A DNA stretch of 64,000 bases from Hexactinellida sp. DTS-2022. Taxonomy: Eukaryota > Porifera > Hexactinellida. The stretch covers positions 1,550,001-1,614,000 of the forward strand of contig JAPNXP010000005.1 in assembly GCA_028753945.1 (NCBI GenBank), given 5' to 3'. The notes under the pieces were generated by a model. It made no database searches, was not told the DNA's origin, and saw nothing but the letters and a program-made list of their open reading frames with translations. This document shows, piece by piece, positions 13,561 to 54,027 of this stretch. Within the stretch, counting starts at the first letter, position 1; every line of letters begins with the position of its first letter. A program made the position numbers and the translations under genes.

Positions 13561-13679
13561 AATCCAAAATTGCATCCTGTGCCGACGCATGTTCCTTGGG
13601 TGGCACTATATTTTGTTGGTTGTTTATTGATAGTGCCTCCAATGGAACATGCTGTCGGCACAGGATGCAATTTTGGATT
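13561..13679. repeat. 119-bp hairpin H1
   Basis: Arms are about 49 and 50 bp (AATCCAAAATTGCATCCTGT against ACAGGATGCAATTTTGGATT). It carries a paired G:C to T:A change against the family consensus. It is the junction where a plus and a minus unit meet tail to tail. Confidence 0.95.
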
Positions 13680-14994
13680 CTTTTTTCGCCAAGTCATCAT
13701 CACTATAAAGGTGTTAAATCATTTCAAAAAGGTGTTACAGAAGGCATCGACCCTTAGAGTGGTGGAAGTTTCGTTTTAGTTCACTTCCTTTTAGCGATAT
13801 TCAAGTGTGAGTAGAATATAACAACTGATGATTCAGCATTTTTTATGTGAGTGTTGGGTCATCACCCAACATGAACTAACCCATTTTTAATATCGAATTA
13901 ACAAAATTGTAAAAACACATTTTTTTAACGATGTCATCATCACCTCAAGGTGTCAAGACCCACTTGTATAGGTGGCACGTGCCATAAGGACCAATTGATA
14001 AATTGAAAGTTTGTTTCTATCTTCCATGATCTCTGAGATTTATGATATTTAATTAATTAGTATATATAATTATTAATATTATTTATAATTTAACACCAAT
14101 TTCCATGTCAACTTATATTTATTAAGTTTAATTATTTTGTCATAAATAATAAATAAATTAATTTATCCATCAAATTTCAATTCCGCACACTCGAAAACCC
14201 CTAATAAACAAATTGGAAGCATCTATATAAGTCATATACTGACTGAATTAATTATAATTAATTACGTCAGTATATTAACAGTGCAATAATATTAACGCAG
14301 AAGTAAATATAATCACATAATCTGTCGTTGTTGTGGTATGTAAATCTTAACGGTTCTATCATAAACCATCTTTAGTTTAATGCCATTCATTCATTACTTA
14401 TTGATAATAAATTAAATTATTAGTTATCATTTTTAGCAATGTTATCCACGGTGATTTGAGTTTAGTCAACAAATTCCTTATATCATTATATTTTATTTAA
14501 TCCATTGTATAGTAATACTACAATTAAATAGAAGCCAGCTGGAATTTATAAGTTGAATCAATATATTTATCTCAAGTTGAAACAATAGAGTAAGATTTAA
14601 CAAGTTAAATCAATATAATTATTACAAGTTGAAACAATAGAATTAGATTTAACACTTTTACTGAAATTGAAGTGTGAGTAAACAAAGAAATTTCAAACCC
14701 CATTTATGGCAGAAATTATAATATTTTTGAAAATATTCCTCTCCCATCAGACGCAGAATTTTATGGTGAATCCAAATGTGAAATAAAATTTTGGGGTTTA
14801 GTAAAACATATTTTGAGTTATGGACCAGGCAAATTTTGAAAGGTGTTAAAGATGTGTCAAAAATTTGTTAATCAAAAATCGTAACCCCAGGTGCAAATTA
14901 GACGGTCCTATCGCACATACATGCCAAGTTTTAGCCCATCAACACTAAAGCTCTGGCCAGGGCACCGTCTACGGAGAAAAAATAAATAAATAAA
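13680..14994 (-). repeat. hairpin-family unit 2 (minus, A tail with B head)
   Basis: Minus-oriented: pre-hairpin segment (CGCCAAGTCATCATCACTAT), A-type body to about 14340, then B-type sequence ending with the B head (GCTCTGGCCAGGGCACCGTC). Confidence 0.8.
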
Positions 14995-15113
14995 AATCCA
15001 AAATTGCAGCCTGTGCCGACGCATGTTCCTTTGGTGGAACTATATTTTGGTGGTGGTTTATTGATAGTGCCTCCAAAGGAACATGCTGTCGGCACTAGCT
15101 GCAATTTTGGATT
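14995..15113. repeat. 119-bp hairpin H2
   Basis: Family hairpin between units 2 and 3. One arm has an unpaired change (GGCACTAGCTGC). Confidence 0.93.
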
Positions 15114-16194
15114 TTTTTTCGCCTAGTCATCATCACTATGAAGGTGTTAAATAATTTCAGAGAGGTGTTTCGGAAGGCAACGACCCTTAGTGAGTTGGAA
15201 GTTTCGTTTTAGCTCACTTCATTTAAGAGTTATTCAAGTTTTCAGTCAATGTAATAGGTGATGAGTTACCATTTTTATGTGCGTGTTGGCTCATCACCCA
15301 AATCCAAGCTACCCATTTGAATTATATAATTCACAAAATTGTAAAAACATATTTTTTTGACGATGTCATCATCACCTCAAGGTGTCAAGACCCATTTGTA
15401 GAGGTGTTACGTGGCATAAGGATCAATTGATAAATTTGAAATCTGTTACTCTCTGAGATTTATGATATTTAATTGATTAATATATATTATTATTAATATT
15501 ATTTATAATATAACACCAATTTCAATGTCAACTTACAATTATCAAGTTAAATTATTTTGTCATAAATAATTAATTAATTAACTTGGCTATCAAATTTCAA
15601 TTCCGCACACTCGATGACCCTTAATAAACAAATTGGAAGCATCTATTTAAATCAAATACAGACTGAATTAATTATAATTAATTACGTCAGTATATTAACA
15701 GTGCAATAATATTCTCGCGGATGTAAATATAATCACATAATCTGTCGTTGTTATGAAATATATAATCTTAGTTTTCAATTGGAAAATAGAAGCCTTCTCG
15801 ATCTCACAAGTTGAATCAATATAATAATCACGAGTCGAAACAATAGAATTTGATTAAACACTTTCAATTGAGCTGAAGTGTTAGTAAACAAAGGAAATTT
15901 GCAACTCTATTGTGGCACAAACTAAGTACAATTTGAAAATTCGTGCACTGTGAAAAGGTGTAGAAATTAATTCTCTATCGAATGCATATGAATTTAATTT
16001 TCGAGTACTATTTATTGTTCCTGTTTCAATATTAAACAGGTGCAAAAATGTGTCCAAAAAAATGTGATAAAAAATCGTGACCCCAGGTGCACATCTGTAA
16101 CCCATGAGACACATATCCTGAAATTTTGGGCTCTTAGTTAATAATACTCTGTACTGGTGGAGAGGATACGGAAGGATAATAATAATAATAATAA
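15114..16194 (-). repeat. hairpin-family unit 3 (minus, A type)
   Basis: Full A-type unit. It contains one of the conserved short open frames of the family (minus strand, about 15881-16110, YRCAPGVTIFYHIFLDTF), which I regard as non-coding. Confidence 0.8.
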
Positions 16195-16313
16195 AATCCA
16201 AAATTGCAGCCTGTGCCGACGCATGTTCCTTTGGGTGCACTATATTTTGGTTGTGGTTTATTGATAGTGCCTCCAAAGGAACATGCTGTCGGCACAGGCT
16301 GCAATTTTGGATT
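16195..16313. repeat. 119-bp hairpin H3
   Basis: Close to the family consensus: AATCCAAAATTGCAGCCTGT against ACAGGCTGCAATTTTGGATT, with a GCCGAC/GCATG one-base bulge. Confidence 0.95.
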
Positions 16314-52388: not shown

Positions 52389-52634
52389 TTGAACTTTGAT
52401 TTGTCCGTTGTTTTAGGAAAATTAACTACATTTATGGTGTGCAATGGGGACAAAGAATGGGTAGATAAATTACAGCCAGCAGTACTAGCAGCCAAAACTC
52501 AGACTAAACAATCCTCAGGTTACACACAATTTTATCTCATTATCGGTAGAGATTTCGATTTCTCAAAGCTACTCAATCTTATCACCTCTCCAAATAACCC
52601 CGGCTTCAAATCACAAACAATTATTGAAACATAA
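52389..52634 (+). pseudogene. Ty3/gypsy integrase C-terminal fragment
   Basis: Contains DKEWVDKLQPAVLAAKTQTK then QSSGYTQFYLIIGRDFDFSK, i.e. the W...LP..V.A.N...Q.STGYTPF.L..GR signature after the catalytic Glu of gypsy integrases. It is broken before the catalytic residues on the left and by stops on the right. It may belong to the same element family as the fragment at 5028-5352. Confidence 0.72.
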
Positions 52635-52779
52635 ACAGAATTAGCCCACCGTAATATTATATAACTCCAATGGACATTGATGAAATTACAGATGCTTCCG
52701 AACTCCCAAATAACGATAACAAATGGTAAGAAGCATATTCATTGGACTCGGTTCATGACTAATCGTGCCGTTCATCAGA

Positions 52780-53180
52780 CAGGGCTTTGAATATATCATG
52801 ATATATGATATATATATCATATCTATTTTTTTTTTCAAATCGAGATACGTACATCAATCAGTATCATATCACTTGGATTGAGGTGATATATCTTGTAGTG
52901 AAATATATATATCCTTTCATGATATATACTATATATCAACTTGAATGTTCATTCAAGAGGACCTGTCAAGTGAAGAAGTGAAGTATGAATATATAACCGG
53001 TCAAGTGAAAATTTTGAGTGAAAATTATATCTGATATACGTATACTATATCATTGTTGAATTTTACTAAACGTGTACTGTATATCACTCATATATCATTT
53101 GGACGATATGATATACTATACGTATATCATATATCATATATCATATGAGATATATCTGATATGATATATTCAAAGCCCTG
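52780..53180. mobile_element. hAT MITE, 401 bp, near-perfect TSD
   Basis: TIRs CAGGGCTTTGAATATATCA / TGATATATTCAAAGCCCTG. The duplications TCATCAGA and TCACCAGA differ at one base. The interior is almost wholly ATATCATGATATAT-type palindromes. Confidence 0.9.
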
Positions 53181-53909
53181 TCACCAGAATATGCTGCCTG
53201 CACAGCTGTAATTTTACATTTCCCCTAGGGTGGAATGAATATACATGTAACGACCCCTTTGGTATTGTCAACTTCACGATGGATCACTTAACCGTTACTC
53301 ATTCCGATTAATTCGCTAAAATATCTGTATTATTGATTTTTCATAGTAGCAGCTATTGATTCAAATTGAATTATTAATACGTATACAATAAAATAATTTA
53401 TTGTAACTATGATAACACAAATCAATTAATACAGTAATATGTAGAATTGAATTATTCATATATGTAAATAGAATTCTTTACTGTAACTATGATATCAGCA
53501 ATAAACTTTAATCCTAATAAAATTGAATATAATTGAATTATTCATAAGTAGTAGATCTTCATCGAAACCACGAAATAATTGCAAAATTGAAATATTAATG
53601 ATTTTACGACTTAAGAATTGTGGCAACTTTGAGCCTAATTATTAGGAAAAAGAGGAATAATTGTAAAAATCGTAAAGAGCTATCAGTTCCAAATATTTTT
53701 CTGAAGCTAATGATTCGAAAATATTTCTTGTTATTGCTTTTATTTTCTTACGGGACAAAAAAAACTAAAGACTCTCTAATATTTTTTCCCAAGTCGAAAT
53801 TGAAAAATCGGGCCACGAGATGCACATTAATCAACAACCAGACACCTATCGTGAAAATCTCAGGCTCTAGCACTTATGGTCTAGTCTGGGGAGGTGACAC
53901 GGAGAAAAA
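53181..53909 (-). repeat. hairpin-family C-type unit (minus) and tail fragment
   Basis: Starts with a half hairpin and tail (ATATGCTGCCTGCACAGCTG, TGTAACGACCCC). It continues as the inverse of 36985-37400 (GTGGCAACTTTGAGCCTAAT, CGTAAAGAGCTATCAG). Confidence 0.75.
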
Positions 53910-54027
53910 AATCTAAAATTACAGTTGTGCCGACTGCATATTCATTTGGAGGCACTATATTTGGTGGTTTAATGACTAATAGTGCCTCCACCAGAATATG
54001 GTGTCTGCACAGTTGTAATTTTAGATT
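53910..54027. repeat. hairpin H15 (diverged, with compensatory changes)
   Basis: AATCTAAAATTAC faces GTAATTTTAGATT: two stem pairs differ from the consensus in both arms. Length remains 118 bp. Confidence 0.92.

Follow-up and report, generated by a model that had tools for sequence, protein, structure and literature searches.

The stretch analysed here, 64,000 nt of contig JAPNXP010000005.1 of the sponge Hexactinellida sp. DTS-2022 (C14:1550001-1614000; genome 112.4 Mb, 18 contigs), is called the window. It contains fifteen copies of a hairpin of about 119 bp, and several diverged copies are changed at the same stem position in both arms. What is this hairpin, and why do its arms stay matched? 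The original prediction, made from the letters of the window, proposed that the folded form is selected, either as a small-RNA precursor or as a cruciform bound by a protein, or that the arms are homogenised by local copying. From our comparison of copies across the genome we conclude that the hairpin is very probably the 3'-terminal hairpin of a Helentron, an endonuclease-bearing transposon of the Helitron2 type, and of its non-coding relatives. This reading is preferred because two coding copies end in the hairpin, the two element ends share an inverted repeat, and a block of units is inserted at an A/T run.

Hairpin copies in the window

A hidden Markov model (HMM) made from the fifteen predicted copies recovered fifteen hairpins in the window at the predicted places, and the predicted lengths were confirmed: 119 bp in ten copies (H1-H9 and H12), 118 bp in H10, H13, H14 and H15, and 116 bp in H11.

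13561..13679, + strand: H1 hairpin, 3'-terminal, pair 15 T:A subfamily (element coding sense, - strand)
14995..15113, + strand: H2 hairpin
16195..16313, + strand: H3 hairpin
17399..17517, + strand: H4 hairpin
19017..19135, - strand: H5 hairpin
19932..20050, - strand: H6 hairpin, pair 16 A:T subfamily
21151..21269, - strand: H7 hairpin
22422..22540, - strand: H8 hairpin
23264..23382, - strand: H9 hairpin
26948..27065, - strand: H10 hairpin, H11-type family
33881..33999, + strand: H11 hairpin (folded part 33882-33997)
38409..38527, - strand: H12 hairpin, pair 4 T:A
39771..39888, + strand: H13 hairpin
40107..40224, + strand: H14 hairpin
53910..54027, + strand: H15 hairpin, diverged family

Folded as DNA, H1 reaches -51.6 kcal/mol, against a mean of -12.8 for 200 shuffles (z -15.2). 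The stem of the hairpin family is about 49 bp long, and in its common form (G) 48 pairs are interrupted by a single T bulge and a single T.T mismatch.

Coding partners and element ends

A strict gapped pattern found 3,878 copies in the genome (1,961 + 1,917) and a control found none; many of the first 100 matches listed stand in same-direction runs spaced about 0.8-1.5 kb apart. On one side of the hairpin the flanks are often unrelated between copies, while the other side runs into family-specific sequence, and the adjoining sequence is mostly A/T-rich. The element that the hairpin terminates measures about 1.2-1.7 kb, or about 9.6 kb if coding.

At loci L005 and L008 an open frame starts about 900-1,000 bp past an array hairpin, and two coding copies (L149+L151 and L150+L152) were obtained. 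Their large frames, of 1,700 aa (L149) and 1,705 aa (L150), both match Helitron_like_N, PIF1, UvrD_C_2 and Exo_endo_phos. The Rep (HUH) and helicase scores are 101.6 bits (Helitron_like_N) and 88.2 bits (PIF1) in L149, and 99.8 and 87.5 bits in L150. Exo_endo_phos scores 30.5 and 26.8 bits, respectively (cut-off 24.5), and Exo_endo_phos_2 29.6 and 28.5 bits (cut-off 27.4). The endonuclease domain follows the helicase, an arrangement given as the Helentron hallmark in the available part of PMC5148889. A frame further upstream in L149 matches DUF6570, and no reverse transcriptase domain was matched in the two coding partners. We take the C-terminal stretch of the coding partner to resemble an OTU protease, and its first frame presumably contains a 2A-like NPGP motif, both recognised by us from the sequence. 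Coding copy 1 (about C11:1614837-1624432) begins immediately after an array unit. Since both coding copies end downstream in the 119-bp hairpin (L151:817-933 and L152:3906-4024), the hairpin is the 3' end in the coding sense.

The 5' end carries a palindromic 33-mer (CTGTGCCGAC...GGCCCAG), with 30 occurrences in the window at up to six mismatches. A 10-bp inverted repeat (CTGTGCCGAC) lies 3 nt inside the 5' end, the exact terminus being our placement and blurred by the A/T run, and recurs, inverted, as part of the hairpin 16 nt before the 3' end. Two Helentron/Helitron2 traits are present, namely a subterminal inverted repeat nearer to the 5' end than to the 3' end, and a 3'-terminal hairpin, although the latter is of atypical length. 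A search for target site duplications (TSDs) mostly found none; apart from two loci taken up below, the repeats that it turned up belonged to microsatellites or arrays or lay far from the end. A miniature inverted-repeat transposable element or another cut-and-paste transposon was considered and rejected, as the ends are unlike each other apart from the 10-bp subterminal repeat and TSDs were mostly not found.

A type III hammerhead ribozyme (RF00008, 56.8 bits, cut-off 48.5) was detected at L151:337-390 (C11:1623836-1623889), between the last Helentron frame and the terminal hairpin. Titles and abstract openings of the open-access literature naming both 'hammerhead ribozyme' and 'Helitron' do not contain this arrangement. 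In the window and the array region, no ribozyme or other Rfam family reached its gathering score.

Paired changes between the arms

Consensus clustering of 165 distinct sequences gave four main families: H11-type (72), common (36), H15-type (28) and LL, a family with a longer loop (22). The remaining seven sequences fell in small clusters. The hairpin end is common to all four families, whose consensuses are paired at 43-48 of 49 positions, and pairs 5, 12, 28, 31, 33 and 49 are differing Watson-Crick pairs between families. Consensuses were compared over these 49 positions in six mutually dependent comparisons, in which some changes on both sides do not yield a standard pair. Between H11 and H15, seven positions were changed on the left, twelve on the right and six on both arms, where 1.7 were expected (P 4e-4). 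The corresponding counts were 4, 5 and 3 for H11 and G (P 0.002), 6, 8 and 4 for G and H15 (P 0.004), 7, 8 and 5 for H15 and LL (P 6e-4), and 4, 4 and 2 for G and LL (P 0.03).

A tree of 201 distinct sequences from 215 full copies corroborates this. It contains 19 same-branch changes from pair to pair, against 1, 1, 1, 5, 1 and 3 when the partners were slid by 1-3 columns, and 28 two-sided changes of any kind, against 9-15 in the slid controls. Low-frequency changes within families gave 19 pair-to-pair cells compared with a shuffle mean of 7.5 and maximum of 13, some of these cells being under-sampled subfamilies. Partial hairpins were excluded from the covariation counts. Copies identical to another were dropped, as were, being repeats of other loci, L001, L009, L039 and (in the tree) L066.

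The fold is thus kept across four diverged families beyond what independent evolution of the arms would give. It is the structure as a whole that persists, not every pair, though copies drift freely after insertion; this would fit a terminal signal under selection in a few active source copies. That far the prediction of a maintained fold is supported, and its covariation is borne out by both the consensuses and the tree. The predicted paired changes of H1 (pair 15, G:C to T:A), H6 (pair 16, C:G to A:T) and H12 (pair 4, C:G to T:A) are present. In H11 and H15, for which two changed pairs each had been named, the changes are real but involve more pairs (31, 33 and 49 in the H11 family; 5, 12 and 31 in the H15 family). 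The T bulge, predicted to be retained, is so in the common family, but partly by eye we find an internal loop in H10 and H11 and a T.T mismatch in H15. General retention of the mismatch is likewise not confirmed: where the common family has T.T, the consensuses of the H11 and H15 families have A:T, and H11 itself has C.T.

Differences among copies mostly affect one arm only. Because the arms read alike on opposite strands, a single motif catches both, and the one-armed counts below are upper limits, as the strict pattern misses an arm bearing an unrelated change (L155 was scored one-armed, yet is compensated). At pair 16, among the first 100 of 213 matches, 18 hairpins carried A on both arms and 19 on a single arm; for T these counts were 5 and 26, and G was one-armed in 9. 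At pair 15, among the first 100 of 712 matches (80 hairpin places), T stood on both arms in 17 and on a single arm in 15. C was one-armed in 43 and never occupied both arms, A was one-armed in 2, and T and C were mixed in 3, so that an uncompensated one-armed C variant has been widely amplified. Pair 4 gave 91 arm matches and three hairpins with both arms caught, the strict pattern missing some pairs (L160, L168). The H1 subfamily is marked by T at pair 15, with 39 other copies 99% identical to H1 among the matches listed, and A at pair 16 seems to define the H6 subfamily; H1 also has two further unpaired changes (TTGGG / CCAATGG). The prediction had named single ancestral variants as speaking against selection, and in part this is what was found, since the H1 and H6 changes are subfamily variants in many copies and unpaired one-arm variants have been amplified too. 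In 40 further common-form copies, most of them chosen on a left-arm change with the outer right arm not yet in view, there were 6 Watson-Crick changes affecting both arms, mismatches in one arm (81) or in both (1), 19 wobbles and 15 gap cells.

The paired changes could also arise without selection if one arm were copied onto the other, by mismatch repair or template switching on a folded single strand. Consistent with this, 15 of the 19 same-branch paired changes lie on tips, i.e. in single sampled copies, and L115 alters two adjacent pairs in both arms. However, mismatched variants have been amplified unrepaired: besides the one-armed C at pair 15, GCACCC copies were compensated in one of the eight fetched. 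The bulge and mismatches persist in the common family, and some tip doubles are alignment effects (in L146, two seeming paired changes stem from a one-base deletion) or maybe under-sampled subfamilies. Copying as the sole cause is improbable, and arm homogenisation is not needed to account for the data.

Arrays and the empty site

The following features of the window bear on how the units are arranged.

11958..12615, + strand: about ten tandem 5'-terminal palindromes of the + sense array
12640..13560, + strand: + sense unit body, interrupted by the H1-H4 block, continuing at 18857 and finishing in H5
13561..18856, - strand: inserted block of four head-to-tail units (H1-H4), with four 5'-terminal palindromes at the far side
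18614..18850, - strand: four tandem 5'-terminal palindromes (CTGTGCCGACTATACTATAGTATAGTGGCCCAG) with A-rich/(TAA)n spacers
36820..38527, + strand: unit with 5'-terminal palindrome (36820), body start CCGTATCC (36887) and hairpin H12; its middle is a mosaic, untraced at base level
40987..41401, - strand: seven tandem 5'-terminal palindromes

When joined, the flanks of the H1-H4 block align to the uninterrupted unit at 37991-38407 (419 bp, 90.9% identity, 3 gaps). This is the single empty site found, and it places the insertion of the block at an A/T run. Within the block the units are joined by A-rich/(TAA)n tracts with no palindromes in between, and here alone the numbers of hairpins and 5' palindromes are equal (4 and 4). 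Judging from this one block, arrays may grow as new copies of like orientation insert one after another into the (TTA)n/T-rich tract that lies immediately interior to the 5' end of an existing copy.

A satellite that captured a palindrome, with arrays built by unequal crossing over and a hairpin devoid of function, would explain tandem units of 1.2 kb in one orientation. It would not explain scattered copies with unrelated flanks, the empty site, or why the four 5' ends of the H1-H4 block are gathered on one side and not spread one per unit, and we regard it as very improbable.

Elsewhere, at G000:C13:1248484-1286935, matches to the element body recur every 7.65-7.8 kb or so, which suggests a large tandem repeat with a truncated Helentron copy.

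Truncated copies

After removal of three duplicates from 87 right flanks (L025 and L066 among those dropped), the 5' side could be compared in 84. Homology ends sharply in 36 of them, at 36 different distances (33-632 bp); of the other 48, 8 have the hairpin only, 11 reach the flank end and 29 are unclear. Searches with 40-mers of the left and right arms gave 105 and 67 matches, a comparison that is not clean, the right 40-mer being drawn from a region of greater variability. From 100 left and 67 right matches, 70 left-only and 37 right-only places were derived, 40 and 20 of which were fetched. By eye, the right arm is cut or lost in 12 of the 40 left-only (terminal-arm) loci: L089, L091, L093, L096, L097-L099 (one tandem), L103, L116, L121, L124 and L126. 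Among the 20 right-only loci, the terminal left arm is lost in L130 and L135 and degraded in L139, and L131 is cut on the right. L130 and L135 share nearly the same junction (CCCTGCTTT) within different flanks.

A search with the element body gave 40 places, of which 20 were fetched, 13 were already known with a hairpin and 7 were left unfetched (4 in one tandem repeat). Twelve of the fetched copies reach the 3' end, seven lack it and one (L206) is unclear; not all are independent, as L208/L209, L211/L212, L201/L202 and a further group of four look related. Our claim of a polarity in which the hairpin end alone is constant was weakened by the copies lacking a 3' end, and the bias towards 5' truncation is mild at best.

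By eye, several hairpins look chimeric (L094, L105, L107, L108, L112, L120, L125 and L127), with an H11-type left arm that passes, close to the loop, into a right arm from a different family, the two arms being poorly matched.

That the hairpin is an RNA gene, a microRNA (miRNA) or small interfering RNA precursor spread by transposition whose pairing is kept for Dicer-type processing, is highly unlikely. It is long and near-perfect and has weak Rfam miRNA matches, but the best of these reaches 50.7 bits against a cut-off of 83, the window holds no Rfam match at gathering score, and the hairpin sits at a transposon terminus common to coding copies; moreover, a long near-perfect stem is not the usual shape of miRNA precursors. 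The predicted small-RNA precursor is therefore not supported, whereas a folded form bound by a protein would fit a transposon end. A retrotransposon 3' end, 5'-truncated through target-primed reverse transcription, was our initial reading of the sharp 5' ends (36 of 84) and of internally cut hairpins keeping the terminal half (a half that our sample favours), and chimeric hairpins would suit it, but it is scarcely credible given coding partners with Rep and helicase and no matched reverse transcriptase domain, TSDs that were mostly not found, and the 5'-truncated Helitron2 copies with intact 3' ends already described in the available part of PMC3627910.

Other features of the window

Near H11, frames at 32249-33477 contain an RVT_1 match (55.4 bits, 32752-33477) that belongs to another mobile element. 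Short AATTATCCGATTGGGTCAACC-type tandem repeats lie in opposite orientations at 34660-34790 and 35420-35520, about 700 bp apart. Further stretches at 60397-62130, 958-1467 and 48776-49384 together contain a protein with integrase-core, H2C2 and SCAND3-type zinc finger matches (integrase core 31.5 bits, slightly below the cut-off of 32.6), a MULE transposase fragment and a RING-finger protein.

Discussion

Several observations weigh against identifying the hairpin as a Helentron terminus kept by selection. Hairpins and 5' palindromes are unequal in number in two of three blocks (5 and about 12 in the + sense array; seven palindromes in the H14 block). TSD-like repeats occur near the homology end in L012 (12 bp) and L062 (11 bp). 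Seven of 19 readable body-side copies are without a 3' end, so that this end is not uniquely kept. Between the H11 and LL consensuses (4 left, 5 right, 1 both) covariation is not significant (P 0.36). On the tree single changes prevail, with 453 breaking a pair and 101 giving a wobble, and many amplified copies have mismatched arms, so that no single pair tested is essential. Finally, the palindromes of mite Helentrons are 5-10 bp long and lie about 8-35 bp from the 3' end in the available part of Thomas et al. 2014 (PMC4067079), whereas the stem here is some 49 bp and reaches the end.

In other respects the Helentrons and HINE/DINE-1 elements described in that part of PMC4067079 resemble ours: a Rep-helicase-endonuclease protein, a subterminal inverted repeat set a few nt in from the 5' terminus, a 3' palindrome, microsatellites in some copies, and non-autonomous copies bearing the ends of the coding copy. 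They also have a T-rich target with a variable number of T and no clear TSD, to which our one empty site at an A/T run may correspond. Unlike in those Helentrons, the hairpin here contains the 3' inverted repeat itself. The accessible text on Helitron2 (Bao and Jurka 2013, PMC3627910) likewise reports an asymmetric terminal inverted repeat, a 5' palindrome or hairpin and a 3' hairpin. It also reports compensatory changes between two related elements, and 5'-truncated copies with intact 3' ends, named one-ended transposition. There, however, the 3' repeat precedes the hairpin, and TSDs accompany most truncated copies. Cg_HINE of the Pacific oyster is comparable as a non-autonomous Helentron that spreads tandem repeats, but these lie mid-element in the available part of PMC7492417, whereas here whole units and 5' palindromes are stacked. 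As far as searches of the open-access literature show, three things are new: how long the hairpin is, that it encloses the inverted repeat, and how many copies display this pattern.

For the Helentron, we picture a single-stranded stage in rolling-circle transposition during which the terminal hairpin would fold, and the Rep/endonuclease protein may recognise or cut the folded end at the T run. Selection on source copies would keep this end foldable, so that successful lineages would carry compensated changes, while immobile copies would gather changes in single arms. The arrays would enlarge as further copies, all facing the same way, land in the (TTA)n/T-rich tract of an existing one, just inside its 5' end. 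A bolder version, which we consider rather unlikely, is that in this lineage the terminal hairpin grew to several times its former size and absorbed the 3' inverted repeat, the folded strand serving as a shape-selected module for starting and stopping replication, with arm matching owed in part to one-step copying from arm to arm on the single strand.

These copies bear on what the 3' hairpin does in Helitron transposition. The element family accounts for tandem arrays that make up a sizeable part of this genome, and the arrangement of the H1-H4 block suggests how such arrays may grow. With thousands of copies, graded matching of the arms and adjoining coding copies, the need for folding at a rolling-circle transposon end could be assessed here from how well matched and mismatched subfamilies have each fared.

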